The translations under genes were made by a program, and so were the position numbers. A stretch of DNA of 64,000 nucleotides from Amycolatopsis sp. GM8 (GTDB lineage: Bacteria > Actinomycetota > Actinomycetes > Mycobacteriales > Pseudonocardiaceae), in contig NZ_JAJKFK010000002.1 in assembly GCF_021653975.1 (NCBI RefSeq), positions 496,001 through 560,000 of the forward strand, written 5' to 3'. The number at the start of each line of letters is the position of its first letter. The stretch's first letter is position 1. Below the pieces are notes generated by a model. The model was not told where the DNA came from and ran no database searches. It was given only the letters and a program-made list of their open reading frames with translations. Of the stretch, positions 19,316 through 60,779 are shown in pieces.

Positions 19316-19463
19316 CTTGTTCGGGAATTTCCGACCATTCAGCGCCGGGAAACATTTGTAGTATTGCGCCGATCTCCTTTCGCAACCGGCGATCGGCGGT
19401 TTATCGTGCGTTCGCCGAGACGGTCGGTGCTCGGGTTTGCTGGGGGTTTTGGGGAGGTTTGTC

Positions 19464-26338: not shown

Positions 26339-27316
26339 ATGCATGCGATCACCATCCGCGAACCCGGCGGTCCCGAAGTCCTGACCTGGACCGAAGTCCC
26401 CGATCCCGAACCGGGCCCCGGTGAGGTGCTCGTCGAGGTCGCGGCCAGCGCCGTCAACCGCGCGGATCTGATGCAGCGGAAGGGTTTGTACCCACCGCCG
26501 CCCGGGGCGAGCGACATCCTCGGCCTCGAATGCTCCGGCACCATCACAGCGCTCGGCGACGGCGTCGAGGGCTGGCAGCTCGGCGACGAGGTGTGCGCGC
26601 TGCTCGCCGGCGGCGGGTACGCCGAGAAGGTCGTCGTCCCGGCCGTGCAGCTCCTGCCGATCCCCGCCGAGGTCGGCCTCGTCACCGCCGCGGCGCTGCC
26701 CGAGGTCGCGTGCACCGTGTGGTCCAACGTCGTCATGATCGCCAGCCTCCGCGAGGGCGAACTGCTGCTGATCCACGGTGGCGCGGGCGGCATCGGCACG
26801 CACGCGATCCAGGTCGGCAAGGCCCTGGGCGCGACGGTCGCGGTGACCGCGGGCTCGGCCGAGCGGCTGGAACGCTGCGGGCAGCTCGGCGCGGACATCA
26901 CGATCAACTACCGCGACCAGGATTTCGTCGAGGTGCTCAAGAAGGAGACCGGCGGCGCCGACGTCATCCTCGACAACATGGGCGCGTCCTATCTGGACCG
27001 GAACATCGACGCGCTGGCCCCGGGCGGGCGGCTCGCGATCATCGGCATGCAGGGCGGCACCAAGACCGAGATCAACCTCGGCAAGGTGATGGCCAAGCGC
27101 GCCAGCATCTCCGGCACCACGTTGCGGGCGCGGCCGGTGGCGGAGAAGGGCACGGTCGTCGCCGCGGTCCGCGAGTTCCTGTGGCCGCTGGTGGCACAGG
27201 GCTCGGTGCGGCCGATCGTCGGCCAGGCCATCCCGATGGCGGAAGCCGCGGACGCCCATCGCGCGCTCGACGAAGGCGACGTGTTCGGGAAGGTGCTGCT
27301 CACCGCCAAGGGCTAG
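26339..27316 (+). CDS. NAD(P)H-quinone oxidoreductase (zinc-free MDR family; Rv3777-like)
   Basis: This 325-residue protein opens MHAITIREPGGPEVL, with the VNRADLMQRKGLYPPPPGAS motif of PIG3/quinone oxidoreductases, dinucleotide site IHGGAGGIGTHAIQVGKALG, and C-terminal GDVFGKVLLT. It lacks zinc-ligand cysteines of alcohol dehydrogenases. It reduces quinones or alpha,beta-unsaturated carbonyls with NADPH. It sits beside the Rv3778c-like gene as in M. tuberculosis, with the two stop codons overlapping by 4 bases; this marks the edge of the conserved wall locus. Confidence 0.9.
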   Translation: MHAITIREPGGPEVLTWTEVPDPEPGPGEVLVEVAASAVNRADLMQRKGLYPPPPGASDILGLECSGTITALGDGVEGWQLGDEVCALLAGGGYAEKVVVPAVQLLPIPAEVGLVTAAALPEVACTVWSNVVMIASLREGELLLIHGGAGGIGTHAIQVGKALGATVAVTAGSAERLERCGQLGADITINYRDQDFVEVLKKETGGADVILDNMGASYLDRNIDALAPGGRLAIIGMQGGTKTEINLGKVMAKRASISGTTLRARPVAEKGTVVAAVREFLWPLVAQGSVRPIVGQAIPMAEAADAHRALDEGDVFGKVLLTAKG

Positions 27317-28512
27317 CGGAGCTCTTCCAGCGCCCGGACCAGCTGGTTGATCTCGAAGACGTTGGAGTAGTGGGCGAGGCCGATGCGGACCGCACCGCCG
27401 ACCTCGCCCACGCCGAGCGCCGAGAACACGCCGCTGGTGCCGTCGTCGGCGAACGCGCAAAGTCCTTGCGAGGCAAGGTAGTCCGCGACCTCGGGCGCTT
27501 TCTTGCCCGCGACCGCGAACGCCAGGGCGGGGATGCGCCGCATGGCGTCGCCGATGACCATCACGTGCGGCAGCGCACGCAGCTCCGTGTTCAGCTGCGC
27601 GAGCAGCCCGGCGTGGTACGACTTCGCCGAGCCGAGCGAGGTCACCAGCTTCTCCCGCCGGGAGCCGGTGGCCGCGTCGTCGAGTCCGGCGAGGTAGTCG
27701 ATCGACGCGATCAGGCCGGCCAGCAGCGGATACGCGTGCGGTCCCAGTTCGAGCCGCGCCGGGCCGCGCACCTCCGGGTCCAGCGACGCCGACGGCAGCC
27801 GCTCGATCAGCTCCGGATCCCGGAAGGCGAGCGCGCCCACCGGGGGCCCGCCCCACGCCTGCGCGGACACCACGATCACGTCGGCGCCCAGCTCCGCCAG
27901 GTCGAGCGGCACGAACGGGGCGGCGTAGGTCGCGTCCACCACGACGGTCGCGCCCACCCGTTTCGCGAACTCCACCACCGTCGGCACATCGGGCCGGGTG
28001 CCGACCGCGCCGGACGCGGCCGTGATGGTGACCGCCTTGGTGTGCGCGGAAATGAGGTTCTCGTACTGCCACGCCGGCAGTTCACAGTTCTCGATGTCGA
28101 TCTCGCCCCAGCGCACGATCGCGCCGACCCGCTTCGCGGTGCGCTGCCAGGGCACCAGGTTCGCGTGCTCGTCCAGCCGCGACACGACGACTTCGTCGCC
28201 CAGCTGCCAGTCCTCGCTCATCGCGTCGGCCAGCCGGCGCAACAGCACGGCGGCGCTCGGACCGAGCACGACACCGGCCGGGTCGGTGCCGACGAGATCG
28301 GCCACCGCGCGGCGGGCCGCGGTCACGATGCTCTCCGCACGCTGGGATGCCGGGAACGCGCCACCGGGTCCGGAAACCGGGGCACGCATCGCCGTCGACA
28401 CGGCCGAGGCCACCTGTTCGGGTACCAGCATTCCGGCAGGGCCGTCGAAGTGGATCCAGCCGTCACCCAGCGCGGGGAACAACCCACGTATTCGAGCGAC
28501 GTCGAACGCCAT
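27313..28512 (-). CDS. Class-V aminotransferase-fold protein, Rv3778c-like, lacking the PLP lysine
   Basis: A 399-residue cysteine-desulfurase-like protein. It has the fold landmarks IHFDGPAGMLVPEQV, LDEHANLVPWQ, ITAASGAVGTRPDVPTV and VVVDATYAAPFVPLDLAELG. At the site where SufS/NifS have SGHK it reads SAQAWGGPPVGAL, so the Schiff-base lysine is absent. M. tuberculosis Rv3778c has the same NAHAWGGPP replacement, so this is a conserved feature rather than decay. Start ATG 28512 matches the family N-terminus MAxDVARxRGL; GTG 28518 is an alternative. Function unknown. Confidence 0.8.
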   Translation of the reverse strand: MAFDVARIRGLFPALGDGWIHFDGPAGMLVPEQVASAVSTAMRAPVSGPGGAFPASQRAESIVTAARRAVADLVGTDPAGVVLGPSAAVLLRRLADAMSEDWQLGDEVVVSRLDEHANLVPWQRTAKRVGAIVRWGEIDIENCELPAWQYENLISAHTKAVTITAASGAVGTRPDVPTVVEFAKRVGATVVVDATYAAPFVPLDLAELGADVIVVSAQAWGGPPVGALAFRDPELIERLPSASLDPEVRGPARLELGPHAYPLLAGLIASIDYLAGLDDAATGSRREKLVTSLGSAKSYHAGLLAQLNTELRALPHVMVIGDAMRRIPALAFAVAGKKAPEVADYLASQGLCAFADDGTSGVFSALGVGEVGGAVRIGLAHYSNVFEINQLVRALEELR

Positions 28513-28626
28513 GGGCACACGGTACGGAGAAGTAATTTCGCTGCGCGTCCGGGGTTGAGATATGGGCCGCCCCGCCGCGGCGGGAGGACTACGCTCGGGG
28601 ACGTCGCATCAGCGCAGCAGGAGCCC

Positions 28627-29199
28627 ATGGACGGAGACATGACGGATCCCAACCACTTCACCAACCAGCCGGACGAGCAGGCGCAGCACGTGCTCGTCGT
28701 CGGACCCGATGGTGCCCCGGTGGGCACGGCGAGGGTGCCGGCCGGCGAGGAGGAGTCCCAGGAAACCGTCGGTGACCTGGTCGAAGAGCCGGCCAAGGTG
28801 ATGCGCATCGGCACCATGATCAAGCAGCTGCTGGAGGAGGTCCGCGCCGCTCCGCTGGACGACGCGAGCCGCAACCGGCTGCGCGAGATCCACCAGACCT
28901 CGGTCAAGGAGCTCGAACAGGCGCTCGCGCCGGAGCTGCAGAGCGAGATGGAACGCCTGGTGCAGCCGTTCACCGACGACTCGACGCCGTCCGACGCCGA
29001 GCTGCGCATCGCGCAGGCCCAGCTGGTCGGCTGGCTCGAGGGGCTGTTCCACGGCATCCAGACGGCGCTGTTCGCCCAGCAGATGGCGGCGCGCGTGCAG
29101 CTGGAGCAGATGCGCCGCGGCCTGCCGCCGGGTGCCTCGGCCGGGCGCGGCGCCGACGGCGTCACCCCGGGGATCACCGGCACCGGCCAGTACCTCTAG
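28627..29199 (+). CDS. bpa: Bacterial proteasome activator Bpa
   Basis: This 190-residue protein is the orthologue of M. tuberculosis Rv3780. The core VGDLVEEPAKVMRIGTMIKQ, then LDDASRNRLREIHQTSVKEL and AELRIAQAQLVGWLEGLFHG is almost unchanged, and it ends in the GTGQYL tail that docks into the 20S proteasome. Bpa forms a dodecameric ring and opens the proteasome gate without ATP, degrading unfolded proteins. ATG 28627 follows CAGGAG; ATG 28639 is possible. It is positioned, as in mycobacteria, beside the wall-glycan genes; its stop overlaps the convergent GT-C gene. Confidence 0.93.
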   Translation: MDGDMTDPNHFTNQPDEQAQHVLVVGPDGAPVGTARVPAGEEESQETVGDLVEEPAKVMRIGTMIKQLLEEVRAAPLDDASRNRLREIHQTSVKELEQALAPELQSEMERLVQPFTDDSTPSDAELRIAQAQLVGWLEGLFHGIQTALFAQQMAARVQLEQMRRGLPPGASAGRGADGVTPGITGTGQYL

Positions 29200-30794
29200 C
29201 GCCGCGGGCAGATCACGAGCGGGTCGGCCCTGATGGCGTTGTCGCAGTCGTAGGTCTGGCGGATCCGCGTGGCCAGGTCTGGTTCGAGCATGCCCAGGTC
29301 GAACCACGACGGGTCCACGACGAGGTACCGCGGCGCGGGATCCGCCAGGCACTCGGCGTTCTCGCCGTAGCTGACGACCGTGCGCACGTCAGGGATCCGC
29401 ATCCCGCGTTGCAGGAACGTCGGCGACGGGTAGCGGCACGGCGTGGGGTTGCCGAGGAAGTAGTTCACGTCGCCGAAGGTCAGGTACAGCACCGGTGTGT
29501 CCGCGCCGATCACGGCGTGCACCTCCGCGGCCTGCGCGGTCATCTGATCGGCGAACCGGACGCGGTCGGCGTTCGTGGACTCGGACCAGCCGAAGTCGAA
29601 GGAATACGGGCTGCTGGGCCAGATCGGGACCGCGAGCGCGGCCACGGCCGCCAGCGCGGGCACGAAGAACAGCGGGCGCCCACCGCGGGCCGGTTCGATC
29701 GCGGCGACCACCAGCGCGAGCACGAGCGCGACCGCCAGCACCCAGTAGACCTGCGTCGCGTACGCGATGCGAAAGGCCTGCGATTTCGCGTCCACCACCG
29801 GCAACCCGACGGCGAGCACGGCGGTGACGAGTACGAGCGTCCACGGCGGCCGCCCGTACTCGGTGTACCAGCGGGCGATCGCGAGCGCCCACAATCCGGC
29901 CGCCAGCGGCAAAAGCGCGTCGAGGTGGTACTGGAACCACTGCGCCTGCAACATGGTCGCGCCGAACACGCCCGCGATTCCCAGCGCCAGCAACACCGGC
30001 CACCAGCCGCGGACCACGCGGAACAGCACGAGCGCGCTGACCGGCAGCAGGGCGAACAGCGGCGCCAGCAGGGCCTCGTTGCCGACCGTCCGCCACAGGT
30101 CGGTGAAATCGAGCGGGGCGCCGCCGAGCGGTGAGGCGCCGTTGAGTGTCGAGAACTCCCCCAGCCACCGCCATTCCCGCGGTTCGACCAGCACGGCGAG
30201 CCCGAACAGCGCGCCACCCAGCGGGATGGCGGCGACGGTCATCGCGAGCGCACGCCGCCGGTCGGCGACGAGCACCACGCCGATCGCGAGCAGCGCCGCC
30301 GGCAGCGTCGTGTACTTGACGAGCACGGTCAGCGCGAGCAGGAAACCGCCCAGCAGGGCCGAAAACCACAGTTTCCGCGGCCACAGCGCGCCCGCGACGG
30401 CGGCGGTCGCAAGCAGTGAGCCGATCCATTCCGGCTGCAGGAAGTCCCAGTTCGGCGCGAGCGCCAGTGCCAGGCCGACGGCCGCCGCGATCATCGTCGC
30501 TTCCGGGCGGCGGAGCGCGGTGCGCAGCCACCACGCGACCAGCGCGACGAGCACCAGCGCGGCCAGCCGGATCAGCGCGTCCGAGCCGAGCGGGGACAGC
30601 GCCGCCATGAACAGCCGGGCGGCGAGCGGCCGATGCACGAACACCGCCGAAGGCGGCAGTTCGGCCACCCGCAGCACGCCGAGCACGTAGTGAACGTCGT
30701 GGTTGAGGCCGGTCCACAGCACCGTCGTCGCGACGGCGACCAGGGCGGCGACGCCCCCGGCGGCCCAGCCGAGCCGCTCGGAAAGCGCTTTCAT
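29196..30794 (-). CDS. GT-C-type polyprenyl glycosyltransferase-like membrane protein
   Basis: 532 residues with about ten transmembrane helices and a C-terminal extracytoplasmic domain. The first loop after helix 1 has LNHDVHYVLGVLRVAEL and VFVHRPLAARLF, an arrangement seen in lipid-linked sugar transferases (GT-C). Cysteines and tyrosines in the tail (TPCRYPSPTFLQRG, YDCDNAIRADPLVICPRR) suggest an exported disulfide domain. It is last in the nonulosonate operon and sits next to bpa, where M. tuberculosis has the GT-C protein Rv3779. The donor sugar is unknown; it might ligate or extend the operon's glycan. Confidence 0.7.
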   Translation of the reverse strand: MKALSERLGWAAGGVAALVAVATTVLWTGLNHDVHYVLGVLRVAELPPSAVFVHRPLAARLFMAALSPLGSDALIRLAALVLVALVAWWLRTALRRPEATMIAAAVGLALALAPNWDFLQPEWIGSLLATAAVAGALWPRKLWFSALLGGFLLALTVLVKYTTLPAALLAIGVVLVADRRRALAMTVAAIPLGGALFGLAVLVEPREWRWLGEFSTLNGASPLGGAPLDFTDLWRTVGNEALLAPLFALLPVSALVLFRVVRGWWPVLLALGIAGVFGATMLQAQWFQYHLDALLPLAAGLWALAIARWYTEYGRPPWTLVLVTAVLAVGLPVVDAKSQAFRIAYATQVYWVLAVALVLALVVAAIEPARGGRPLFFVPALAAVAALAVPIWPSSPYSFDFGWSESTNADRVRFADQMTAQAAEVHAVIGADTPVLYLTFGDVNYFLGNPTPCRYPSPTFLQRGMRIPDVRTVVSYGENAECLADPAPRYLVVDPSWFDLGMLEPDLATRIRQTYDCDNAIRADPLVICPRR

Positions 30795-31259
30795 TCAGTC
30801 CCCGGAAGCCCTGTGCGCCAACACCTCTTCGACGCGCGCGAGCCGCTCTTCGTATTGCGCCACAACGGACTCGCGGGCCCGGATGCGGGCGTGTTCCGCG
30901 CGGGTGTCGTCGACCTCAGCCGACGCCGCGCCCGGCCGTTCGAGCGCCGCGACCTGGCTGCCCATCGCGGCCACGTGCGCGGCGATCCGGCGCAGCTCGT
31001 CGTCATGCCAGCGGAACCGGCCGTCGACTTCGTCGACCCGATGATCGGCATGCCCGCGCAGCTCGTCGCGCGTCGCCTGCAGCTCCGTGCGGAACTCCCC
31101 GCGCAGCGCGTCCAGCTGACCGCGCACCTCCGCCAGCTGCCGGCGCAGATCGTCGAGCTGCGGGACGAAACGCTGATCACTCACGTTCTCGATACGCCAG
31201 CGCAGCCGCTTCCACAGCGGGAAAACGGCCCGCTTCCCCAGATTCTTCACAGTGCTCAC
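30795..31259 (-). CDS. Coiled-coil protein of the nonulosonate operon
   Basis: 154 residues. A basic amphipathic N-terminus (GKRAVFPLWKRLRWRIENVS) is followed by heptad-rich sequence (LDDLRRQLAEVRGQLDALRG and ARIRARESVVAQYEERLARV). No membrane helix. The GTG start overlaps the upstream GT29-like gene by four bases. Similar small coiled-coil proteins sit beside glycosyltransferases and may hold an enzyme complex at the membrane; that role is inferred from position only. Confidence 0.65.
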   Translation of the reverse strand: MSTVKNLGKRAVFPLWKRLRWRIENVSDQRFVPQLDDLRRQLAEVRGQLDALRGEFRTELQATRDELRGHADHRVDEVDGRFRWHDDELRRIAAHVAAMGSQVAALERPGAASAEVDDTRAEHARIRARESVVAQYEERLARVEEVLAHRASGD

Positions 31260-31948
31260 GGGATCAACTCGATTTCTCCGTTGTCACGCCAGGACCGCAG
31301 CAACGCGGACTCGGCGTGCAGCCGGTGGTCTCCGGTGACGTGCACGTCCTCACCCCAGGCGTGCGCGAACGTCGTCTGCTCGGGCCGGTCGACGATCGAG
31401 AACCCGGTGACGCCGATCTTGGCCCCGGGGAACAGCCGGACCGCCAGATACACGACGAGTGTGCCGGTGGTCGCCCAGGTCGGCTGATCGGGATCGAGCC
31501 CGAGCAGCCGGCCCAGCGGCCGCACGAACGGCCGGTTCGGGATCGGCACGAAGCCGAGGTCCGCGGGCCACCAGTCGGGGATGATCTCCGGTTCCCAGTG
31601 CAGCCGGCCCGGCTCGGCGAGCAGGTACAGGCGGGACGTGTAGTCGGCGAAGGTGTGCGGGCTGGCCAGCACTCCGCGGTGCATGACCACGACGTCGGTC
31701 TTGCGTCCGTACGCCGGCTCCGCGCCCGGCTCGTCGAGCGCGAACGTCGTCATCCGCACGACGAGATCGCTGTCGTCGATCAGCGCGGCCCGTTCGGCGC
31801 TCGGCGCGAGTGGTGCGTTGCCAACCACGGTGAGCGATTCGACCCGCTGGCCTCGTCCATACGAAGCCACCAGCTCGCGGAGAGCGTCGAGCTGTCGTGC
31901 CGCGGCCACCTCTTCGGGCGCGGCCTCAGCCAGGTACACGGCTTCCAC
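31256..31948 (-). CDS. GT29-like sialyltransferase-family protein
   Basis: A 230-residue soluble protein. An L-motif-like block VVGNAPLAPSAERAALIDDS followed by DLVVRMT, an S-motif-like block TTGTLVVYLAVRLFPGAKIG followed by VTGF, and a VS-like HDHRLHAESALL reproduce the layout of GT29 sialyltransferases (nucleotide binding, donor/acceptor, catalytic His). It lies directly after a NeuB-like synthase and a CMP-sugar synthetase, so transfer of a CMP-nonulosonic acid is a coherent inference. GTG start at 31948, 39 bases after the neuB-like stop. No signal peptide, so it would act at the cytoplasmic membrane face before export. Confidence 0.7.
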   Translation of the reverse strand: MEAVYLAEAAPEEVAAARQLDALRELVASYGRGQRVESLTVVGNAPLAPSAERAALIDDSDLVVRMTTFALDEPGAEPAYGRKTDVVVMHRGVLASPHTFADYTSRLYLLAEPGRLHWEPEIIPDWWPADLGFVPIPNRPFVRPLGRLLGLDPDQPTWATTGTLVVYLAVRLFPGAKIGVTGFSIVDRPEQTTFAHAWGEDVHVTGDHRLHAESALLRSWRDNGEIELIP

Positions 31949-31987
31949 CCCTTCACCGATCGGAGGACCGACTGTAGCGAAGTTGGT

Positions 31988-32857
31988 TCAGACCCTCCGC
32001 AGACGGCGGCGCGGGGCCTCTTCGCCGGGAAACACGCGCTTCACGCCGTCACCGAGCGCCAGTTCGACATTACGGATATCGCGGATCAAGCGCCGCAAAC
32101 CTTCCGGCTCGAGCGAAGCGGCCTGATCCGAACCCCACATCGTGCGGTCCAGCGTGACATGCCGCTCGACGACACACGCGCCCAGCGCCACCGCGGCGAT
32201 CGACACCTGCAGCCCGCGCTCGTGCCCGGAATAGCCGATCGGCACGCCGAACCGCCGCGACAGCGTCTCGATCATGCGGAGGTTCGCCTCCTCCGGCGGG
32301 CACGGATAGGTCGACGTGGCGTGCAGCAGCACCAAGCGCTCGGTGCCGAGTACCTCGACGGCCTTCTCGATTTCCTCCATTGTGGACATACCGGTCGAGG
32401 CGATGATCGGCTTCCCGGTGTCCCGCAAGGCTTTCAGCAAGTCCACATCGGTCAGTGACGCCGACGCGACCTTGTGCGTGACCACGTCGAACTTCTCCAG
32501 GAAGTCCACACTCGGCACGTCCCACGGCGAAGCGAACCAGGCGATGCCCTGGTCCTTGCAGTGCCGGTCGATCTCCTCGTACTCGGGCACGCCGAACTCG
32601 ACGCGGTACCGGTAGTCGAGGTAGGTCATCTCGCCCCACGGCGTGTCGCGCAGGGTGTCCCGCATGTCCGGCGGGGTCGCGATGTCCGGCGTGCGCTTCT
32701 GGAACTTGACCGCGTCCGCGCCCACGCTCACCGCGACGTCGATCAACTGCTTGGCGATCTCGACGTCGCCGTTGTGGTTGATGCCGATCTCCGCGACCGT
32801 GAACACCGGATGCCCGGGACCCACCTCGCGGTCGCCGATTCGCACGGCAGAAGTCAC
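31988..32857 (-). CDS. NeuB-family nonulosonic acid synthase (short, no SAF domain)
   Basis: A 289-residue TIM-barrel enzyme. It has FTVAEIGINHNGD, GADAVKFQKRTP, ASASLTDVDLLKAL, STGMSTMEEIEKAV, LLHATSTYPCPPEEANL, IGYSGHERG and ERHVTLDRTMWGSDQAASLE, the ordered motifs of sialic, legionaminic or KDN synthases that condense PEP with a mannose-type sugar. The C-terminal antifreeze-like (SAF) domain of classical NeuB is missing. The start overlaps the CMP-synthetase stop (ATGA). With no NeuC epimerase or aminotransferase nearby, KDN or KDN-phosphate is the simplest product, but this is not provable from sequence. Confidence 0.85.
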   Translation of the reverse strand: MTSAVRIGDREVGPGHPVFTVAEIGINHNGDVEIAKQLIDVAVSVGADAVKFQKRTPDIATPPDMRDTLRDTPWGEMTYLDYRYRVEFGVPEYEEIDRHCKDQGIAWFASPWDVPSVDFLEKFDVVTHKVASASLTDVDLLKALRDTGKPIIASTGMSTMEEIEKAVEVLGTERLVLLHATSTYPCPPEEANLRMIETLSRRFGVPIGYSGHERGLQVSIAAVALGACVVERHVTLDRTMWGSDQAASLEPEGLRRLIRDIRNVELALGDGVKRVFPGEEAPRRRLRRV

Positions 32858-34071
32858 TGTTCCGTCCTCCGTTCAACTGCGTGCAAGACGAGGTCGGCCA
32901 CCTCGCGGACAGCGCCGGCGCCACCGGGCCGGGTCAGCACCAGCCGCGCCGCCCGCAGCACCTCCGGCCGCGCGTCGTGCACCGCGATCGGCCAGCCGAC
33001 CAGCGCCATCGCGTCCAGGTCGCGCAGGTCGTTGCCGACGAACGCGACCCTGGCCGGGTCCAGCCGCTGCTCGGTGAGCCAGGTCTTGAGCACGGCAGCC
33101 TTGTCCCCGACCCCGTGCAGCACTTCCACGCCGAGCTTCGCGGCCCGCGCGGCGACCACCGGGTTCTTCTCGACGGACAGGATCATCAGCGGGATCCCGG
33201 CGGCCAGCAGCCGCGCGACACCCGCCCCGTCCGACCGGCTGACCAGCACGCCCTCGGTACCGTCCTGCAGGACCAGCGCGCGGTCGTCGGTGTGCACGCC
33301 GTCGAAGTCGGTGACCACCGCGTCCACGTCCAGATCCACCGACAGCGGTTCGATGGTGGCCGCGAGCGCGCGGGCGATCGCGAGGTCCTCCGCGGTGTCG
33401 ATCTCGATCGCGTGCTTCGCGGGTGTCTCGACGAGCCCGATCCGGCCGAAGAACCGGTGCCGCGCCGAGCGGAACCCGGGCACGCGCATGCCATACACCG
33501 CACCGGTTTCGCGGAACTCCGGCGTGCGCTCCTGGCGCCGCGGCCGCACCGCGGCGTCGTGGTTGACCGCGACCGCCGCGCCGTCCGGGTCTCGCTGCCA
33601 CAGGAACTCGTGCACCCGCACGGCCGTGAAAGCACAGTCCCAGCCGTCGTCGAGGATCTGCGACACGACGTTGTCGATCGTCTCGGTCGCGATGAACGGC
33701 GACGTGCACTGGACCAGTAGCACCACTTCGGGCGAATACCCGTGCTCCTGCTCGAACACGTCGAGCGAATGCAGCAGGACCGCTTCCGAGGACACCGAAT
33801 CCCCGGACAGCTCGTCCGGACGCGGCGACACCACAGCGCCCGCGGCCTCCGCGACGGCGCCGATCTCGGCGCTGTCGGTGCTGACCACGACCTCGTCGAC
33901 CCGGGTGGACGAGCGCAGCGCGCGCACCGCCCGCGCGATCAGCGGGTCCTCGCCGACCTTCGCGAGGTTCTTGCCGGGTACGCCCTTCGAGCCGCCCCTG
34001 GCGGGCACAACCGCCAGGACCCGGGTCCCCTCACGTTCAACCACACGGGTGAGGGTACGGAACGCGCTCAC
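32854..34071 (-). CDS. CMP-nonulosonate cytidylyltransferase fused to a KdsC-type HAD phosphatase
   Basis: A 405-residue protein. The N-terminal half is a NeuA-type nucleotidyltransferase with VVPARGGSKGVPGKN at 21-35, SSEAVLLHSLD and VLLVQCTSPFI. From about residue 260 a HAD domain follows with nucleophile motif DFDGVHTDD, conserved SVEKN and VGNDLRDLDAM. The fusion could dephosphorylate a 9-phosphate nonulosonate and activate it with CTP in one polypeptide. GTG 34071 overlaps the upstream GlfT2-like stop by four bases, fixing the start; a longer frame to 34173 would intrude deep into that gene. Confidence 0.87.
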   Translation of the reverse strand: MSAFRTLTRVVEREGTRVLAVVPARGGSKGVPGKNLAKVGEDPLIARAVRALRSSTRVDEVVVSTDSAEIGAVAEAAGAVVSPRPDELSGDSVSSEAVLLHSLDVFEQEHGYSPEVVLLVQCTSPFIATETIDNVVSQILDDGWDCAFTAVRVHEFLWQRDPDGAAVAVNHDAAVRPRRQERTPEFRETGAVYGMRVPGFRSARHRFFGRIGLVETPAKHAIEIDTAEDLAIARALAATIEPLSVDLDVDAVVTDFDGVHTDDRALVLQDGTEGVLVSRSDGAGVARLLAAGIPLMILSVEKNPVVAARAAKLGVEVLHGVGDKAAVLKTWLTEQRLDPARVAFVGNDLRDLDAMALVGWPIAVHDARPEVLRAARLVLTRPGGAGAVREVADLVLHAVERRTEQ

Positions 34072-35945
34072 TTCGCCCCGAACAGGCGCTCCCAGTTCTC
34101 CTTGCTGGTCAGCTGTGGCTTCGCCTGCTGGTAACGGCGGACCGTCTGATCGCCCTCCTGGCGCAACCGCCACAGCACCGCCAGGCCCTGCTTACCGAGC
34201 TTCGTCATCAGCCGCTTGTCCAGCCGGCGCACCCGGACCCCGGTCTGCGACGCGTCGGTGACGACCGCGGTACGGAACAGCGAGACGTGCCACCAGTGCT
34301 CGTCACCCGCGCGGATGGCCGCGCCACCGCCCGGCTTGTCCAGGTACTGCGTGAGCAGGCGCTTGAGCAGCACGAGCGTCGGCTTCGACGGCTCCCAGCT
34401 CGGCCGCACCATCGGCGCGTGCTCGGCCCGCACCCCGGTGCGCGCCGCCGGCACGATGTGGGTCTCCGGGAACTCGGCGCGCAGCATGCGGATCGAGGGC
34501 ACCACGTTCGCGCCACCGTCGGACAGCGACTCCGGGCCCGCCAGGAAGTCCTCGATCGCCTTGATCATGGTCGCCGCGAGGCCGTACTGCATCGACGCCA
34601 GCGTCTCCATGAACTCGGTGAGCAGGAACTGGAACATGTCCTTGGACCGCAGCTGGTTGTGCAGCGACGCGGTGATCAGGCCGTTGCGGTAGTGGAAGTA
34701 GCGGGCCCAGTCGTCCCAGCCCTTCCAGTACAGGTCCTGGTGCCACACGCCGGCGCCCGGCAGGGTCACCGTGAAGAACCCGGCGGCACGCGCCCGCAGC
34801 CCGTACTCGACGTCGTCCCACTGGAAGAAGATCGGCAGCGGGTAGCCGACGGACCGCACGACCTCGGCCGGGATCAGGCAGCACCACCACGCGTTGTGCG
34901 TCGCCTCGACGCGGCGTTCCTGGTTGTGGTCCAGCATGCTGCGCTGCGACAGCGACTCGTTGCGGTCGATCCCGGCGCGCAGCTTCGGCAGGTCCGCGAT
35001 GTCCGCGTCGACGAACAGCCGGTCGGGGTGCAGCTCGCAGAGGTTCTGCCCGCCGATCACGGCCGGTTCGCAGGCGCTGTTGGCGAGCGCGCTGATCCGC
35101 ATGATGGTGTCGGACTCGAGCTTGATGTCGTCGTCCATCAGCAGGACGTGCGCGTCCTCGCCGCCCGGGCCTTCGAGCGTATCGTGCATGCCGCGGGTGA
35201 AGCCGCCGGCGCCGCCGAGGTTGGCCTGGCGGACGTAGCGGAGCTTGTCCCCGAGCAGCTCCTTGACGTGCGCGAAGCGGTCCCGCGAGTCGACGGTGTC
35301 GGTGCCCTGGTCGGTGACGTGCACGGTGGTGACGTACTCGCGGACGATCGGGTCCTCGGCGAGCTCGATCAGCGTCTCGATGCAGTAGTCGGCGCGGTTG
35401 AACGTGCAGATGACGATCGAGATGGGGCGCGGCGCCTTCGCGCTCGCCACCGTCCAGCGCACGTTCTCCACGACCAGCTGTTCGGCGCCGGTCTCGATGT
35501 CCAGCCACAGCGCGCCGCCGTCGACGAACCGGTCGATCGGCGCGGTCAGCCGGACGGTCTCCCCGTCGGCGCCCGCGACGACCTTGGTCGCCACCGTCCT
35601 GGGCTCGCCGTGGCTGTCCGACGCGGTGATCACCAGCTTGCCGGATCCGGTGACCACGGCCTCGACGTCACAGCTGGTGACCTCGGTATAGCGCTGCCAG
35701 TAGCTCGCGGGGAAACGACCGAAATAGGTGTTCGTCGTGACCTGTGCGTGCGGTTCGACCGTCACCCGTTCGCGTTCTGCGACCGCCGCGCCCAGCTTCG
35801 TGGCTGCATACATCGCGTCCGGCGCCGGAAATGACCGTGCGGCGAAGAATGTCCGCTGCGCGAGCAGACGTCCTGGCTCACCATCGCGTCTTTCCGGCCG
35901 GTTCTCCGGCTCGGCAACCACGTTCTGGGTCATGCCGATCGACAC
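34068..35945 (-). CDS. GlfT2-like galactofuranosyltransferase, paralogue A (nonulosonate operon)
   Basis: A 625-residue protein. The N-terminal beta-domain contains NTYFGRFPASYWQRY, then a GT2 core ISIVICTFNRADYCIETLIE, the metal site LLMDDDIKLES, QWDDVEYGLRARAAGFFTVT, the WHQDLYWKGWDDWARY base/acceptor motif, and the C-terminal PQLTSKENWERLF helix. All landmarks of M. tuberculosis GlfT2 (WDD, the H of WHxxx, DDD) are present. GlfT2 alternates beta-1,5 and beta-1,6 galactofuranose in galactan. It is the first gene of an operon leading into nonulosonate synthesis, so it may build a decorated or separate galactan. GTG 35945, or ATG 35933. Confidence 0.85.
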   Translation of the reverse strand: MSIGMTQNVVAEPENRPERRDGEPGRLLAQRTFFAARSFPAPDAMYAATKLGAAVAERERVTVEPHAQVTTNTYFGRFPASYWQRYTEVTSCDVEAVVTGSGKLVITASDSHGEPRTVATKVVAGADGETVRLTAPIDRFVDGGALWLDIETGAEQLVVENVRWTVASAKAPRPISIVICTFNRADYCIETLIELAEDPIVREYVTTVHVTDQGTDTVDSRDRFAHVKELLGDKLRYVRQANLGGAGGFTRGMHDTLEGPGGEDAHVLLMDDDIKLESDTIMRISALANSACEPAVIGGQNLCELHPDRLFVDADIADLPKLRAGIDRNESLSQRSMLDHNQERRVEATHNAWWCCLIPAEVVRSVGYPLPIFFQWDDVEYGLRARAAGFFTVTLPGAGVWHQDLYWKGWDDWARYFHYRNGLITASLHNQLRSKDMFQFLLTEFMETLASMQYGLAATMIKAIEDFLAGPESLSDGGANVVPSIRMLRAEFPETHIVPAARTGVRAEHAPMVRPSWEPSKPTLVLLKRLLTQYLDKPGGGAAIRAGDEHWWHVSLFRTAVVTDASQTGVRVRRLDKRLMTKLGKQGLAVLWRLRQEGDQTVRRYQQAKPQLTSKENWERLFGAK

Positions 35946-36126: not shown

Positions 36127-37089
36127 GTGCATGCCACCAGCACGGTCGACAAGGCCAGTGATCACGCGACGGACAGCCCGCGGCGCGTCCCGCCCTCAGC
36201 GAACAGCCGTTCCTTCGCACGCGCGTTCGAGGACATCCGTGAGGGGTTTTCGCAGCGTGAGCTGTGGTCGCACCTCGGATGGCAGGACATCAAGCAGCGC
36301 TATCGCCGCTCGGTGATCGGCCCGTTCTGGATCACGATCAGCCAGGGTGTCATCTCGCTCGGTCTCGGCATCCTGTACTCGACGCTGTGGGGCCTGCACG
36401 TCTCGACGTTCCTGCCCTACATCGCGACCGGGTTCATCGTCTGGACCTTTGTCAGCGGCTGCCTCGCCGAAGGCATGGAAACCTTCATCTCCAACGAGGG
36501 CCTGATCAAGCAGATCCGGGCGCCGTTGACGGTGTACATGCTGCGCACGGTGTGGCGGCAGACGTTGATGTTCGCGCACAACATCATCGTCGTGGTCATC
36601 ATCGTGGCGATCTTCTTCGGCAGCCTGAACAACCACTACGACCTCAACCACGGGGTCTGCGGGCCGGAAACGATCATCTGCCACCCCGGCCTCGGCTGGT
36701 ACTCGCTGAGCGCGATCCCCGCGTTCGCGCTGCTGGCGATCAACGCGGGCTGGCTCACCCTGCTGCTGGGCATCATCTCGACGCGTTTCCGCGACATCCC
36801 GCAGCTGATCAACTCGATCATCCAGCTGCTGTTCTACATGACCCCGATCGTGTGGCCGATCGACCAGCTCTACGGCACCGGCGCCCGCGCGGAACTGGCC
36901 CGCTGGGTGGTGCCGATCGTGCACCTCAACCCCTTCTACCATTTCGTCCAGATCCTGCGCGCCCCGTTGATCGGGCAGGCCGTGAGCTTCGGCAGCTGGC
37001 TGGTCGTCATCGGCATCACGATCGTCGGCTGGGCGCTCGCGCTCGTCGCGCTGCGCAACTACCGTGCCCGCGTCTCCTACTGGGTGTGA
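36127..37089 (+). CDS. wzm: ABC-2 type glycan exporter permease (Wzm; galactan export)
   Basis: This 320-residue protein has six transmembrane helices after a cytoplasmic N-terminus (WSHLGWQDIKQRYRRSVIGP, FWITISQG), the family signature of O-antigen/galactan exporters (Rv3783-like). The C-terminal half has LLGIISTRFRDIPQLINSII and FYMTPIVWPIDQL. With the ATPase it would flip lipid-linked galactan across the membrane. GTG 36127 starts the protein; a longer frame to 35728 is not coding-like. It is nine bases upstream of wzt. Confidence 0.9.
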   Translation: MHATSTVDKASDHATDSPRRVPPSANSRSFARAFEDIREGFSQRELWSHLGWQDIKQRYRRSVIGPFWITISQGVISLGLGILYSTLWGLHVSTFLPYIATGFIVWTFVSGCLAEGMETFISNEGLIKQIRAPLTVYMLRTVWRQTLMFAHNIIVVVIIVAIFFGSLNNHYDLNHGVCGPETIICHPGLGWYSLSAIPAFALLAINAGWLTLLLGIISTRFRDIPQLINSIIQLLFYMTPIVWPIDQLYGTGARAELARWVVPIVHLNPFYHFVQILRAPLIGQAVSFGSWLVVIGITIVGWALALVALRNYRARVSYWV

Positions 37090-37916: not shown

Positions 37917-38828
37917 ATGAGCAGTCCCGAGCAGGCGCCGCTCGACAAGGGCGCCGTGGTGGCCGTCGTGGTCACCAGGCACCGGCGTGAGCTGCTCGCG
38001 GACTCGCTGAAAGTGCTCGCCGCGCAGACCAGGGCGGTCGACCATCTCGTGGTGGTGGACAACGGGCCGGACCAGCCCGCGCGCTCGGTCGTCGAGTCGT
38101 ATCCACTGCCCTGCACCTACCTGCCCTCGCACCGGAACCTCGGCGGCGCCGGCGGTTTCGCGCTCGGCATGCTGCACGCGCTGGCGCTCGGCGCGGACTG
38201 GGTGTGGCTCGCGGACGACGACGGCAGGCCCGCGGACGAGACGGTCCTCGCGGTGCTGCTGAGCGAGGCGGAGAAACGCGGCCTGGCCGAGGTTTCACCG
38301 GTGGTGACGAACATCGACGCGCCCGCGAAGCTGGCCTTCCCGTTGCGGCGCGGGCTGACCTGGAAGCGTTCGTCGGCCGAGTTGGGCACGGATTTCCTGC
38401 CCGGGATCGCCTCGCTGTTCAACGGCGCGCTGTTCCGCGCGTCCACCCTCGACGTCGTCGGGGTGCCGGACCTGCGGCTGTTCTTCCGCGGCGACGAGGT
38501 CGAGGTGCATCGCAGGCTGGTGCGCTCGGGCCTGCCGTTCGGCACCTCGCTGAAGGCGGCGTATCTGCACCCGGACGGTTCGGACGAGTTCAAGCCGATG
38601 CTCGGCGGGCGGTTCCACGCGCAGGACCCGGAGAACGAGGTCAAGCGGTACTACACGTATCGCAACCGCGGGTTCCTGTTGTCCCAGCCGGGAATGCGCA
38701 AGATCGGCGCACTCGAGGTGATCCGGTTCGGGCTGTACTTCATGGGCGTGAAGCGGGACCCGAAGGCTTTCCTGCAGTGGCTGAAGCTGGTCCGGCAGGG
38801 CCAGCGGGAACGCTTCTTCCGCTACTGA
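37917..38828 (+). CDS. glfT1: GlfT1-type galactofuranosyltransferase
   Basis: 303 residues, GT2 family: VAVVVTRHRRELLADSLKVL, LVVVDNGPDQPAR, RNLGGAGGFALGMLHAL, the metal motif WLADDDGRP, FFRGDEVEVHRRL and a C-terminal HAQDPENEVKRYYTYRNRG. Matches the initiating galactan transferase Rv3782, which adds the first two galactofuranoses to the GlcNAc-rhamnose linker lipid. AAAGGCGGAG lies ahead of the ATG, two bases after the wzt stop. It ends overlapping the convergent espG-like gene by 7 bases. Confidence 0.9.
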   Translation: MSSPEQAPLDKGAVVAVVVTRHRRELLADSLKVLAAQTRAVDHLVVVDNGPDQPARSVVESYPLPCTYLPSHRNLGGAGGFALGMLHALALGADWVWLADDDGRPADETVLAVLLSEAEKRGLAEVSPVVTNIDAPAKLAFPLRRGLTWKRSSAELGTDFLPGIASLFNGALFRASTLDVVGVPDLRLFFRGDEVEVHRRLVRSGLPFGTSLKAAYLHPDGSDEFKPMLGGRFHAQDPENEVKRYYTYRNRGFLLSQPGMRKIGALEVIRFGLYFMGVKRDPKAFLQWLKLVRQGQRERFFRY

Positions 38829-39580: not shown

Positions 39581-39695
39581 GACACTTCCCCCTCGGAAAT
39601 CGTCCATCGAGCACGTTAGCCGATAACGGGGACACTCGTTGCGCCCTTGGCGAACCAGCTTGCCGCGCAAGATCGGGAACTGCTGTGGTGGACCC

Positions 39696-42627: not shown

Positions 42628-44559
42628 TCACAGCTCGTACAGGCGCTGCCAGTTCTCCCGGCTGGTCAGCTGCGGCATCGCCCGCTTGTACTGGGCCTGC
42701 ACCGCCCGGCCTTCCTTGCGCAGCCGGTTGATCGTCCGCAGTCCGTGCTTGCCCAGCTCGAACATGCGGTCGCGATCGTACTTGCGGACCCGCACACCCT
42801 CCTGGTTGGCATCGGTCACCACGGCGGTGTCGAACAGCGCCACGTGCCACCAGCTGGCCTCGTCCATCGGGATCGCGCCCAGGCCGAACCGCGAACGGCC
42901 GCGCAGCCGGTCGACGATGCGCTTCACCAGCACCAGTCGCTGCAACGCGGGCCGGCCGCCGCCGTTGATGATGCCGATGTCGTTCGACGCGATACCCGGG
43001 ACCTCGGTCGGGTCGTACCGCTTCGTCTCCGGGTACCTGGCCCGGATCTCCCGGATCTCCTGCATCGCGGCGACCCCGCCGTCCCGCAGGATGTCCGGGC
43101 CCTCGAGGAAGTCCTCGACCGCCTTGATCAGGGTGTGCGTCAGGCCGTACTGCATCCCCAGCAGGTACCGGACCAGCTGCGCCGTCAGCACCCGCGCCAG
43201 CACGTTCACGTTGAACTCGCTGTGCAGCGCCGCGGTGATGATCGAGTTACGCAGATTGAAGTAGCGGTGCCACTCGTCCCAGTCCTTCCAGTGGAAGTCG
43301 GCGTGCCACACGCCCGCACCGGGCAGGGTCACCGTCGGGAAGCCGTGCTCCCGCGCCCGGTAGCTGTACTCGGCGTCGTCCCACTGGAAGAAGAACGGCA
43401 TCGGGTAGCCGACCTCACGCACGACCTCGTACGGGATCAGGCACGACCACCAGCCGTTGTACCCGGCGTCGAGCCGCCGCTCCTGCTTGTTCGGCTTACC
43501 CGTCTCCTCGTCGACCCCGAGCAGGTTCGCCGTGGACAGGCTGTGCTCGACCGGCATCCCCGGTTCGAGCGTGTTCAGCCGCGCATACTCCGCCCCGACG
43601 TGCAACTGGTGCGGGTGCAGCAGGTTCAGCATCTGACCGCCGACGATGACCGGGTTCGCGGCGCGGTTGGAGAACGCCGTCATCCGGATCACCAGGTCCG
43701 GCTCCAGCAGCACGTCGTCGTCCATGAACAGCACGTTCGCGTGCTCGGTGTCGGTGTGCCCGGCCACCTCGTACAGCCCGCGCGTGAACCCGCCGGCGCC
43801 ACCGAGGTTCGGCTGGGTGATGTAGTGCAGCTTCTCGCCCAGCGCGGCGGACACCTCGGCGAACCCGTCCCGCGACTCGACCCGGTCGGTGCCCTGGTCG
43901 GCGACGTAGATGGCGTCGAGCGTGTCCAGCGACGAGATGTCCCCGGCGAGCGCCTGCAGGTTCTTCAGGCAGTCGTCCGCGCGGTTCATCGTGCAGATGG
44001 TGACCGCGGTCGGCCGGATCTTCTCCGGCGGCTCGACGGTCCAGCGCACCCGCTCGGCGGTCAGCTGCTGACCCGCCTCGGTCTCCAGGTCCAGCCACAG
44101 CGCGCCGCCGTCGAGGAACTTGTCGAGCTTCAGGTCGAACGAGACCGCGAGCTTCTTGGCGCCGTCGATCTCCTGCGCGGCGACCGTGCGCGGTTCGCCT
44201 TCGAAGTCCGACGCGCGCACGGCCACCAGACCGGAGCCGGTGACGACCAGCTCGGCGCGGACCTCACGCACCGTGGTCCACCGCTGCCAGTAGCTGGCGG
44301 GGAAGCGACCGAAATAGGTGTTGCCGGAGACCCGTGCGGACTCTTCGAGACTGACGCTGTCGCGCTTGCGGGTGACGACCCCCGCCTGCACCTCGCCGTA
44401 CAGGTCCTTCGACACGACCGGCGCCGGGCCGGCATAGAGCCCGCGCTGGGTGGTCAGCCGCCCCTGGGGGGTGTGTTCGGAGAACGTGGTCTGCTCCTTG
44501 TCCGCGGCCGCGGAGGAGCCGTTGCCCCGCGTCGTGGCCGTCGCGGTCTTACCAGCCAT
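42628..44559 (-). CDS. glfT2: GlfT2-like galactofuranosyltransferase, paralogue B
   Basis: A 643-residue protein. The N-terminal domain has NTYFGRFPASYWQRWTTVRE, the GT2 core PTAVTICTMNRADDCLKNLQ, NLGGAGGFTRGLYEVAGH, metal site LFMDDDVLLEP, GGQMLNLLHP, YNGWWSCLIP, FFQWDDAEYSYRAREHGFPT and WHADFHWKDWDEW. Its GGQMLNL and YNGWW stretches are closer to M. tuberculosis GlfT2 than those of the paralogue at 34068-35945, so this is the better candidate for the housekeeping galactan polymerase. ATG 44559 follows GGAGGA; in-frame GTG 44589 and TTG 44598 exist. It lies beside GtrA/DprE1 rather than glf. Confidence 0.87.
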   Translation of the reverse strand: MAGKTATATTRGNGSSAAADKEQTTFSEHTPQGRLTTQRGLYAGPAPVVSKDLYGEVQAGVVTRKRDSVSLEESARVSGNTYFGRFPASYWQRWTTVREVRAELVVTGSGLVAVRASDFEGEPRTVAAQEIDGAKKLAVSFDLKLDKFLDGGALWLDLETEAGQQLTAERVRWTVEPPEKIRPTAVTICTMNRADDCLKNLQALAGDISSLDTLDAIYVADQGTDRVESRDGFAEVSAALGEKLHYITQPNLGGAGGFTRGLYEVAGHTDTEHANVLFMDDDVLLEPDLVIRMTAFSNRAANPVIVGGQMLNLLHPHQLHVGAEYARLNTLEPGMPVEHSLSTANLLGVDEETGKPNKQERRLDAGYNGWWSCLIPYEVVREVGYPMPFFFQWDDAEYSYRAREHGFPTVTLPGAGVWHADFHWKDWDEWHRYFNLRNSIITAALHSEFNVNVLARVLTAQLVRYLLGMQYGLTHTLIKAVEDFLEGPDILRDGGVAAMQEIREIRARYPETKRYDPTEVPGIASNDIGIINGGGRPALQRLVLVKRIVDRLRGRSRFGLGAIPMDEASWWHVALFDTAVVTDANQEGVRVRKYDRDRMFELGKHGLRTINRLRKEGRAVQAQYKRAMPQLTSRENWQRLYEL

Positions 44560-44621
44560 GAGTTCGCTGTCCTCCAGGGATTCGGTCACGCCGGGCAAAC
44601 TACACGTGAGTTTTTCACACG

Positions 44622-45176: not shown

Positions 45177-46559
45177 GTGAACGCGACGACTCCCGATTTC
45201 CCGACCGAGCGGCGGACACTGACCGGTTGGGGCCGCACGGCTCCGACCACGGCGGACGTGCTCAGCACGCCGGATGTGGAGGTCATCGCCCGCGCGGTGA
45301 CCCAGGCCGGCGAGCGGGGCGTGATCGCGCGCGGGCTGGGCCGTTCCTACGGCGACCCCGCGCAGAACGCGGGCGGCCTGGTCGTCGACATGACCCCGCT
45401 GGACCGCATCCATTCGATCGACCCCGACAGCGGGGTGGTCGATCTCGACGCGGGCGTGAGCCTGGACCAGCTGATGAAGGCGGCGCTGCCGCACGGGCTG
45501 TGGGTGCCGGTGCTGCCGGGGACCCGCCAGGTGACCATCGGCGGCGCGATCGCCAACGACATCCACGGCAAGAACCACCACAGCGCGGGCAGTTTCGGCA
45601 ACCACGTGGTGTCGATGGATCTGATCACCGCGGACGGCCAGGTGCACACGCTGACGCCGGAAGGCCCCGAGGCCGAGCTGTTCTGGGCGACCGTCGCGGG
45701 TGTCGGGCTGACCGGGATCATCGTGCGCGCCAAGGTCAAGATGAAGAAGACCGAGAGCGCGTACTTCATCGTGGACGCGGACCGCACGTCGAACCTGGAC
45801 GAGACGCTGGCCCTGTTCACCGATGGTTCGGACCTCAACTACGACTACTCGATGTCGGTGCCGGACCTCATCAACTCCGACTCGCGGCTGGGCCGCGCCA
45901 CGTTTTCCCGCGGCTCGCTGGCGAAACTCGACCAGCTGCCGCCGAAACTGCGCGCGGACCCGTTGAAGTTCGACGCGCCGCAGCTGATGACGCTGCCCGA
46001 CGTGTTCCCGAACGGGCTGGGCAACAAGCTGACTTTCGGGCTGCTCAACAACGTCTGGCAGCGCACCGTGCCGCAGAAGGGCGTGCGCGGGAAGATCCAG
46101 AACCTGACGCAGTTCTACCACCCGCTGGACATGCTCAGCGAGTGGAACCGCGCCTACGGCTCCAAGGGTTTCCTGCAGTACCAGTTCTCGATGCCGTTCG
46201 GCCGCGAGGACGAGCTGAAGCACCTGTGCCGCCGGATCGCGACCTCGGGTCACTACTCGTTCCTCAACGTGTTCAAGCGGATGGGCGAGGGCAACGCCGC
46301 GCCGCTGTCCTGGCCGTCGCCGGGCTGGATGCTCAGCGTGGACTTCCCGATCAAGGCCGGCCTGAGCCGGTTCTGCATCGAACTGGACGACGAGGTGCTG
46401 GCCGCCGGTGGCCGGCTGTACACGGCGAAGGACTCGCGCACCACGCCGGAGATGTTCGCGAAGATGTACCCGCGACTCGAAGAGTGGCGCAAGGTCCGGC
46501 ATTCCGTTGACCCCGAAGGCGTTTTCGCCTCAGACATGAGCCGGAGGCTCGAACTGTGA
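45177..46559 (+). CDS. dprE1: Decaprenylphosphoryl-beta-D-ribose 2'-oxidase DprE1
   Basis: A 460-residue FAD oxidase: [52 protein letters not shown] and the C-terminal [14 protein letters not shown] and [12 protein letters not shown] blocks identify it. With DprE2 it epimerises decaprenyl-phosphoribose to the arabinose donor. At the place of the benzothiazinone-reactive Cys387 the sequence reads [10 protein letters not shown]; with the GTG 45177 start the serine is residue 387. Mycobacteria with this change are resistant, so natural insensitivity is likely. It overlaps dprE2 by four bases. Confidence 0.95.
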
Positions 46560-58026: not shown

Positions 58027-59000
58027 AGGTAGAACGTCACCGCGAGCGTGGCGACCCACAACACACCCAGGATCTGCAGCACGCGGTCCTTGAGCACGAT
58101 CTCCTCGGGCTCACCGGCCGTGCCGCCGTCCACGTCCACCGCGTACCGCAGCACCGCGATGACGAACGGCACCATCGAGATCAGCGGCCAGATCGAGCCG
58201 TGCGCGCCCTCGCGGAGGGTGAACGCCCACAGCGAGTACGACATGATCAGGATCGCCGCCGCGGTCGCCCACACGAAGCGCAGGTAGCTGGCCGAGTACT
58301 TCTTCAGCGAGGACCGGATCTTGGCGCCGGTCCGCTCGAACAGCATGATCTCGGCGTAACGCTTGCCGGCCACCATGAACAGCGAGCCGAACGCGGTCAC
58401 CAGCAGGAACCACTGCGACAGCGCGATCCCGGCGGCGACACCACCGGCCATCGCGCGCATCAGGAAGCCGGAGCCCACGATCGCGAGGTCGACCACCGGC
58501 TGGTGCTTGAGCCCGAAGCAGTAGCCCAGCTGCACCGCCTCGTAGACGCCCAGCACGATCGCCAGCTGCGGGCTGGCCAGGAAGGACAGCCCCAGGCCGG
58601 CCGCGAAGAAGATCACCGCGCTGACGTAGGCCAGCGGGACCGGGACGATCCCGGCGGCGATCGGCCGGTTGCGCTTCGTCGGATGCGCCTTGTCCGCCTC
58701 GACGTCGATCGCGTCGTTGATCAGGTAGACCGAGGACGCGACGAGTGAGAAGGCGACGAACGCGATCAGTGCGTCGAGCAGCACCCCGCCGTTGGTGATC
58801 TGCGCCGCGGTGAACGGCGCGACGAAGACGAGCACGTTCTTCGCCCACTGACGCGGCCGTGCGGTCTTCAGCACGCCCAGCGCCATCCGGACCGGGCCCC
58901 GCGTGGCGGTGGTCTCCGGCTTGGTCTCCGGTTTGGTGTCGGTGTCCGGTTCGGCTGCCGGCGTGACGTCCACGCCGGCCTCGTTCACTGATTTGGTCAC
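58023..59000 (-). CDS. ubiA: Decaprenyl-phosphate phosphoribosyltransferase (UbiA/DPPR synthase)
   Basis: 325-residue UbiA-fold enzyme with nine helices; the first aspartate-rich site YLINDAIDVEADKAHPTKRN and the second GYCFGLKHQPVVDLAIVGSG are present, with LFMVAGKRYAEIML later. It attaches 5-phosphoribose to decaprenyl phosphate, the first step to decaprenyl-phosphoarabinose (Rv3806c-like). The first 35 residues are a Thr/Pro/Glu-rich cytoplasmic tail. GTG start. It sits between the PAP2 phosphatase and aftA. Confidence 0.94.
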   Translation of the reverse strand: MTKSVNEAGVDVTPAAEPDTDTKPETKPETTATRGPVRMALGVLKTARPRQWAKNVLVFVAPFTAAQITNGGVLLDALIAFVAFSLVASSVYLINDAIDVEADKAHPTKRNRPIAAGIVPVPLAYVSAVIFFAAGLGLSFLASPQLAIVLGVYEAVQLGYCFGLKHQPVVDLAIVGSGFLMRAMAGGVAAGIALSQWFLLVTAFGSLFMVAGKRYAEIMLFERTGAKIRSSLKKYSASYLRFVWATAAAILIMSYSLWAFTLREGAHGSIWPLISMVPFVIAVLRYAVDVDGGTAGEPEEIVLKDRVLQILGVLWVATLAVTFYL

Positions 59001-59011
59001 GAACGCTTTCC

Positions 59012-60779
<1,768 letters not shown>

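Follow-up and report, generated by a model that had tools for sequence, protein, structure and literature searches.

A putative nonulosonate cassette at the galactan export locus of Amycolatopsis sp. GM8 suggests that wall galactan may be capped or decorated

The galactan export locus of Amycolatopsis sp. GM8 (family Pseudonocardiaceae) carries a four-gene accessory cassette that appears to make and attach a nonulosonic, sialic-acid-type sugar. The cassette comprises genes for a cytidine monophosphate (CMP)-nonulosonate synthetase fused to a HAD phosphatase (NeuA-HAD), a NeuB-type synthase that lacks a SAF domain, a GT29-like transferase and a short charged protein, and in this genome it is accompanied by an extra galactofuranosyltransferase-2 gene (GlfT2b). 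It lies between the exporter genes Wzm/Wzt/GlfT1 and a resident membrane gene, within a 64-kb stretch of the 8.16-Mb genome that we refer to as the window. Judged from sequence comparisons, wall galactan may bear a hitherto unreported sugar, as a cap or as another decoration. On the best reading, the cassette would be an exchangeable module that transfers a nonulosonate to galactan in the cytosol, from where an ATP-binding cassette (ABC) transporter exports the glycan. A first-pass annotation of the window had already placed genes for a CMP-nonulosonate and a GT29-like transferase together in the galactan locus, and this proposal is supported.

Domains in the window were assigned by Pfam and NCBIfam profile searches, gene overlaps and candidate starts were read off the sequence, and membrane segments were located with a simple hydropathy scan. 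All six open reading frames (ORFs) of the first-pass annotation are present where it placed them (Table 1), and GTGA overlaps are seen at the GlfT2b/NeuA-HAD, NeuA-HAD/NeuB and GT29-like/short charged gene junctions. NeuB and the GT29-like gene are spaced 39 bp apart, and the stop codon of the short charged gene abuts the ATG of a GT-C-like membrane gene. The whole cassette is on the minus strand, divergent from the plus-strand Wzm/Wzt/GlfT1 genes. This arrangement is real, as it recurs in other genera and hence is not due to chance.

Recurrence is tied closely to nonulosonate pathways. Among 200 genomes of the family (own genome included), 48 carry the GT29-like gene. A true NeuB, defined as a match of E<=1e-60 after NeuB-like matches of E 1e-13 or worse had been dropped, occurs in 46 of these 48 genomes vs 11 of the 152 without the transferase (Fisher 4e-32, kinship ignored). 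The two genes share a contig in 42 of the 46 genomes, and in all 42 they share a strand. At the level of the order, the transferase is found in 23 of 298 genomes, 17 from the family of the window and 6 from one other family; at the level of the class it is found in 5 of 394, with the own genome included and one match very weak. For closer comparison, the best 80 of 89 relatives were kept as named loci, each stored with at most 10 kb of flanking sequence, and 73 of them hold nonulosonate marker genes in this flank. These comprise 44 pseudaminic, 16 N-acetylneuraminic acid (Neu5Ac) and 13 2-keto-3-deoxynononic acid (KDN)-type pathways, a few of which rest on one marker (e.g., L085 and L115, where PseI stands at the end of a contig). 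The seven marker-less loci are L066, L069, L125 and L126, for which NeuB lies on a different contig of the genome, plus three from Geodermatophilus that show a NeuA-like match where the stretch ends. The types were named by scoring representative genes against NCBIfam models, with PseB (487 bits), PseI (451) and NeuC (357 and 361) over their cut-offs; PseF- and PseG-type genes were labelled from position and weak scores. By this typing, the window cassette appears to be of a KDN-like type, its relatives apparently carrying Neu5Ac or pseudaminic pathways instead.

GT29 is best known from animals. In an alignment of 61 members of the GT29-like protein, 41 match PF00777 at E<=1 (best 1.7e-6), and any other Pfam family is matched by at most 2. 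When the alignment profile is compared with the PDB, GT29 enzymes take the first six places (E 0.0037-0.38). Residues N44, T161-G162, H196, H208 and E213 are invariant across the 61 aligned rows, and "VGN", "TTG" and "H-x4-E" signatures are conserved. We assign these residues provisionally to motifs like the sialyl motifs L, S, III and VS. The hydropathy scan found no membrane segment in the protein, and a search for its gene on plasmids gave no match. The two family genomes with the transferase and no true NeuB are G196 (83% complete) and G173. In the latter, the 20-kb stretch L051 holds no match to the nonulosonate queries, and its GT29 copy (L051:9662-10381) is without the stretch holding H196 and without H208, as if it were decaying after loss of the donor pathway.

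Which sugar the window cassette makes can be approached through its other genes. A NeuB-type synthase, a HAD phosphatase and a CMP transferase are present together, as a KDN pathway requires, and the window NeuB, in which a Pfam search found no SAF match, is the sole NeuB found in its genome. The fused HAD reaches 86 bits against the KdsC-type model TIGR01670 (cut-off 107) and 76 bits against the KDN-9-phosphate phosphatase equivalog NF058599, below the cut-off of 180. When it is aligned with 13 loci of the same type, DxDG is conserved in 12 of these, DK in 13 and VGND in 12; the L057 row starts after the first Asp of DxDG, and L107 has VGDD for VGND. Plasmid records with NeuA-HAD matches number 12 (best Nonomuraea, 55%), so the fusion also occurs outside the cassette. 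The first-pass annotation had argued for KDN from the absence of NeuC. As a proof this has to be rejected, because a NeuC-family gene is present in the same genome ~129 kb from the cassette; KDN survives as the simplest product. NeuC scores over the cut-off in all five cassette genomes of the genus (the own genome and 4 congeners) and in none of five Actinokineospora genomes with the same cassette type, and NanE is absent from 9 of 10 same-type genomes, the exception being the window's own. The NeuC-family gene also occurs in 2 of 6 congeners without GT29 and NeuB matches, and so serves something else, at least there. Given the five Actinokineospora genomes without NeuC over the cut-off, the general absence of NanE and the fusion of the HAD domain, KDN is the simplest reading for the sugar in this genome, and somewhat more likely than not. 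Around the NeuC-family gene (contig ~396760-405229; L155, L156), neighbouring ORFs were read as LegB-, LegC- and PtmE-like without a family search.

Transferase type is associated with pathway type. For trees of the transferase and of the export genes, we counted how many switches between pseudaminic and KDN/Neu5Ac types each requires at minimum; these trees were built quickly and leave many forks open. For named loci with an exporter, this number is 7 for GlfT1 (63 rows), 7 for Wzt (64 rows) and 1 for GT29. After five non-duplicate unnamed loci were added (68 rows, 62 labelled), it is 8 for Wzt, 7 for GlfT1 and 2 for GT29. In an 81-row GT29 tree, the window, 12 KDN-type loci, 12 Pseudonocardiaceae Neu5Ac loci and two unlabelled loci form one starred clade, outside which lie four Geodermatophilaceae Neu5Ac loci and one KDN-type locus. 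These trees suggest that the sugar is matched more closely by the transferase than by the export genes, and that transferase and sugar mostly move together.

The limits of the cassette are set by genomes that lack it. In all six congeners without the transferase, Wzm, the membrane gene and a cysteine-desulfurase-like gene follow in that order, and none of the four cassette genes (NeuA-HAD, NeuB, GT29, short charged gene) has a match at E<=1e-3 in the 19-kb stretch. This clean empty site defines the cassette and places the membrane gene outside it. The GT-C-like protein, which the first-pass annotation had counted as a member, is therefore a resident of the site. The same annotation had overlooked a second GlfT2 gene in the window, the canonical GlfT2a, and had described the cassette as translationally coupled to a GlfT2-type gene. 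GlfT2b matches GlfT2 in the PDB (4fix, 9dtp) and groups with copies from 4 other Amycolatopsis cassette loci in a starred clade of five, far from GlfT2a (in a tree that carries a long-branch warning). Since it is present in the window and in only 4 of 13 other KDN-type loci, the GlfT2 link does not appear essential, and we rejected GlfT2b as a core part. A mechanical ORF pick places a short charged ORF after GT29 in 76 of the 80 loci; 44 of the 80 show sequence similarity. A heptad measure is raised in many relatives; the window protein gives 0.95, which is not raised, and heptad periodicity was dropped as evidence for a coiled coil.

The neighbourhood of the cassette bears on its acceptor. 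In 63 of the 80 loci, both Wzm and GlfT1 are no more than 10 kb away; most adjoin the cassette and some are several kb off. Seven of the remaining 17 loci keep related genes further away, five in Geodermatophilaceae with GlfT1 at 19-33 kb on the same contig and two in Schumannella with glf and Wzm/Wzt-like genes at 16-22 kb. In G663, which is outside the order, GlfT1-like, glf (72%), GlfT2-like (35%), Wzt-like (35%), GT29 and short charged genes and part of NeuA follow in that order over ~13 kb, with other ORFs interspersed, up to the contig end at NeuA. We also searched 20 transferase-bearing genome handles (19 distinct genomes, as G214 and G803 are alike), chosen mainly for loci away from Wzm. 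GlfT1 is over the cut-off in 14 and AftA in 3, indicating that galactofuranan, and not arabinogalactan, is the commoner partner. The earlier description of a "sialylated arabinogalactan" is thus too narrow, and what stands of it is the putative attachment to galactan. We think it somewhat more likely than not that the nonulosonate has galactan, or a different galactofuranose glycan belonging to this locus, as its acceptor. Two side observations were made. The genomes of L073, L077, L066 and seven Geodermatophilaceae loci have GlfT1 over the cut-off and no AftA_N match, and so hold galactan genes without the first arabinosyltransferase. In Blastococcus xanthinilyticus (L119, 7616-10651), Wzm is not the neighbour of the transferase, which stands beside purE, purK and a gene for a GtrA-type membrane protein.

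Several results pull the other way from an exchangeable module acting on galactan. Behind the type names, PseC (409 bits) falls just under its cut-off of 423.5, and the Neu5Ac-type NeuB (356) falls under 400. The window GT29-like protein scores 17 bits vs a Pfam cut-off of 23, and the profile matches in the PDB are weak, at E 0.0037 and up. Strongly supported branches alone force 3 switches for Wzt and 3 for GlfT1 vs 2 for GT29; in Modestobacter, the transferases of one Neu5Ac locus and one pseudaminic locus are sisters; and G009 (L046, 5393-10388) has NeuC, NeuB and NeuA genes, yet its transferase is starred in the pseudaminic clade. With two GT29 switches and the G009 exception, we reject strict co-exchange of transferase and sugar, and donor changes without exchange of the transferase do occur. 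The G009 stretch also holds a PseF-like match that may be left over from an earlier pathway, as if the pathway had been replaced and the transferase kept. In the window's own genome, the presence of both a NeuC-family gene and NanE means that KDN is not the sole possible sugar. Finally, 10 of 80 loci lie on contigs other than that of the best GlfT1 match, and 6 of the 20 handles, three of them small metagenome bins, are without GlfT1 over the cut-off, which rules out canonical galactan as the acceptor in those cases.

These last two counts favour the alternative that the nonulosonate decorates another glycan, a glycolipid or a protein, and has only its neighbourhood in common with galactan synthesis. 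Cassettes that are exchangeable could simply sit at a hot spot. We nevertheless regard this as unlikely, though a serious contender, given that Wzm and GlfT1 are close by in the large majority of loci, that G663 has a different arrangement and still keeps its cassette genes beside glf, GlfT2-like and Wzt-like genes, and that no other acceptor gene was seen travelling with the cassette among the part of the loci inspected. The sugar could also be part of a polymer backbone, as in a teichulosonic-type galactose-KDN polymer, and not a cap or side group. The nearest PDB entry to the window HAD is 3mmz, a HAD protein from Streptomyces. Streptomyces walls have been described, in passages of one account, as containing a galactose-KDN teichulosonic acid (PMC11481543). 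The backbone alternative is nonetheless improbable, as one small transferase is all that accompanies the pathway, save for GlfT2b in the window and 4 loci, and as the transferase is so scarce in the class. Least probable is that the GT29-like protein is not a glycosyltransferase at all. Its sub-threshold Pfam score leaves room for this idea, which is opposed by the PF00777 matches across the alignment, the GT29 enzymes at the top of the PDB matches, the conserved signatures and the steady company of nonulosonate pathways.

For the preferred reading, transfer to the galactan of this locus, a cytosolic route can be proposed from the predicted activities. NeuB would condense phosphoenolpyruvate with a hexose phosphate, most simply mannose-6-phosphate, the fused HAD would take off the 9-phosphate, and NeuA would make the CMP-sugar, most simply CMP-KDN. 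The soluble GT29-like enzyme would then transfer the sugar in the cytosol onto lipid-linked galactan, ahead of export. Relatives would use Neu5Ac or pseudaminic acid instead, with the transferase mostly changing along. The short charged protein may possibly act as a chain-length ruler. A more specific version, which we offer tentatively and think less likely than not, would have the non-reducing end of galactan capped by an exchangeable nonulosonic acid (KDN, Neu5Ac or pseudaminic acid), with the short charged protein setting chain length and the cap usually swapped between species together with the GT29 enzyme. Such a system would be an analogue, assembled from different components, of the terminator/ruler systems that end Gram-negative O antigens with 3-deoxy-D-manno-oct-2-ulosonic acid (Kdo).

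Table 1. Genes of the cassette and its surroundings, in window positions.
Feature	Position	Strand	Basis
GlfT2b, accessory galactofuranosyltransferase-2 paralogue	34068..35933	-	GlfT2_domain3 86 bits, Glft2_N 75 bits; ORF open to 35945, likely ATG 35933
NeuA-HAD, CMP-nonulosonate synthetase + KdsC-type HAD phosphatase fusion	32854..34071	-	CTP_transf_3 88 bits; ORF to 34173, likely GTG 34071
NeuB-type nonulosonate synthase without SAF domain	31988..32857	-	NeuB PF03102 283 bits
GT29-like nonulosonyltransferase (predicted)	31256..31948	-	Glyco_transf_29 PF00777 E=0.004, below Pfam cut-off
Short charged protein, possibly coiled coil	30795..31259	-	weak coiled-coil-type Pfam matches only
Resident polytopic membrane protein, GT-C-like; flank	29196..30794	-	no Pfam match E<=0.01; 9 hydrophobic segments
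Cysteine-desulfurase-like gene, far flank	27313..28518	-	TIGR01976
Wzm, galactan ABC exporter membrane subunit	36127..37089, start approximate	+	PF01061
Wzt, ABC exporter ATPase, 271 amino acids	37099..37914	+	ABC_tran the sole family over cut-off
GlfT1	37917..38828	+	NF050113 507 bits, cut-off 330
GlfT2a, canonical galactan polymerase	42628..44598	-	GlfT2 match 92 bits
Oxidase, presumably DprE1-like; galactan/arabinan neighbourhood	45177..46559	+	Pfam domains
AftA arabinofuranosyltransferase	56092..58059	-	PF12250/PF12249
Glf, UDP-galactopyranose mutase	59526..60749	-	PF03275 277 bits

The genes that come after GlfT1 in window order, among them GlfT2a, AftA and Glf, also include a UbiA-family gene. 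Between GlfT1 and GlfT2a lies an EspG-family (type VII secretion) gene (38822-39868), a match to which occurs in 35 of the 80 named loci (L052-L131). Elsewhere in the window, positions 19437-21440 encode a lysozyme-type protein of family GH25 that has seven LGFP repeats, and a Geodermatophilus locus (L106) has an amidase with ten LGFP repeats near its cassette.

Known systems resemble this locus in part. Passages of a report on Klebsiella describe several O antigens that are ended by Kdo or methyl groups through proteins with coiled-coil rulers (PMC11231755). In the Kdo-terminated, ABC-exported O antigens treated there (WbbB of Klebsiella O12; ORF7 of O4, GT137) and with the WbdD-type rulers, a CMP-ulosonate-dependent transferase with a coiled-coil element works on an ABC-exported glycan, a scheme that our locus may resemble (PMC11231755). 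Here, in contrast, the transferase is of a GT29-like family, the possible coiled-coil protein is on a separate gene, the predicted sugar is a nonulosonate and not Kdo, and the glycan is a Gram-positive galactan. Among the Pfam matches of the window Wzt at E<=0.001, there is no C-terminal carbohydrate-binding module. The likeness would thus be one of logic, and we claim no membership in the terminator/ruler systems. The animal GT29 sialyltransferases (ST6Gal1, ST8SiaIII) are alike in sialyl-type motifs and a weak profile match, whereas the bacterial enzyme has ~220-230 amino acids, no membrane anchor and the company of KDN-, Neu5Ac- or pseudaminic-type pathways.

The galactan pathway of mycobacteria uses the same GlfT1, GlfT2 and Wzm-Wzt genes for synthesis and export, and the passages available of a study on it place galactan assembly on the cytosolic side, followed by Wzm-Wzt export, and mention no nonulosonate cassette (PMC10951656). 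Within the 298 genomes of the order, transferase matches come from two families only. Streptomyces teichulosonic acids offer a precedent for KDN in an actinomycete wall glycan, as part of one account describes (PMC11481543). That glycan is a short phosphate-free galactose-KDN polymer, not a modified ABC-exported galactofuranan. Our literature search, which left most subscription journals outside, brought up no account of wall galactan bearing sugars of the sialic-acid type.

How the length of mycobacterial galactan is controlled is described as open in passages of the same mycobacterial study, where contact between GlfT2 and the exporter is proposed (PMC10951656). If our reading is true, a capping module at the exporter would make galactan length control testable in harmless soil actinomycetes. 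In addition, that the same kind of site accommodates three sugar pathways would suggest that surface identity is under selection, speculatively by phages, for instance.

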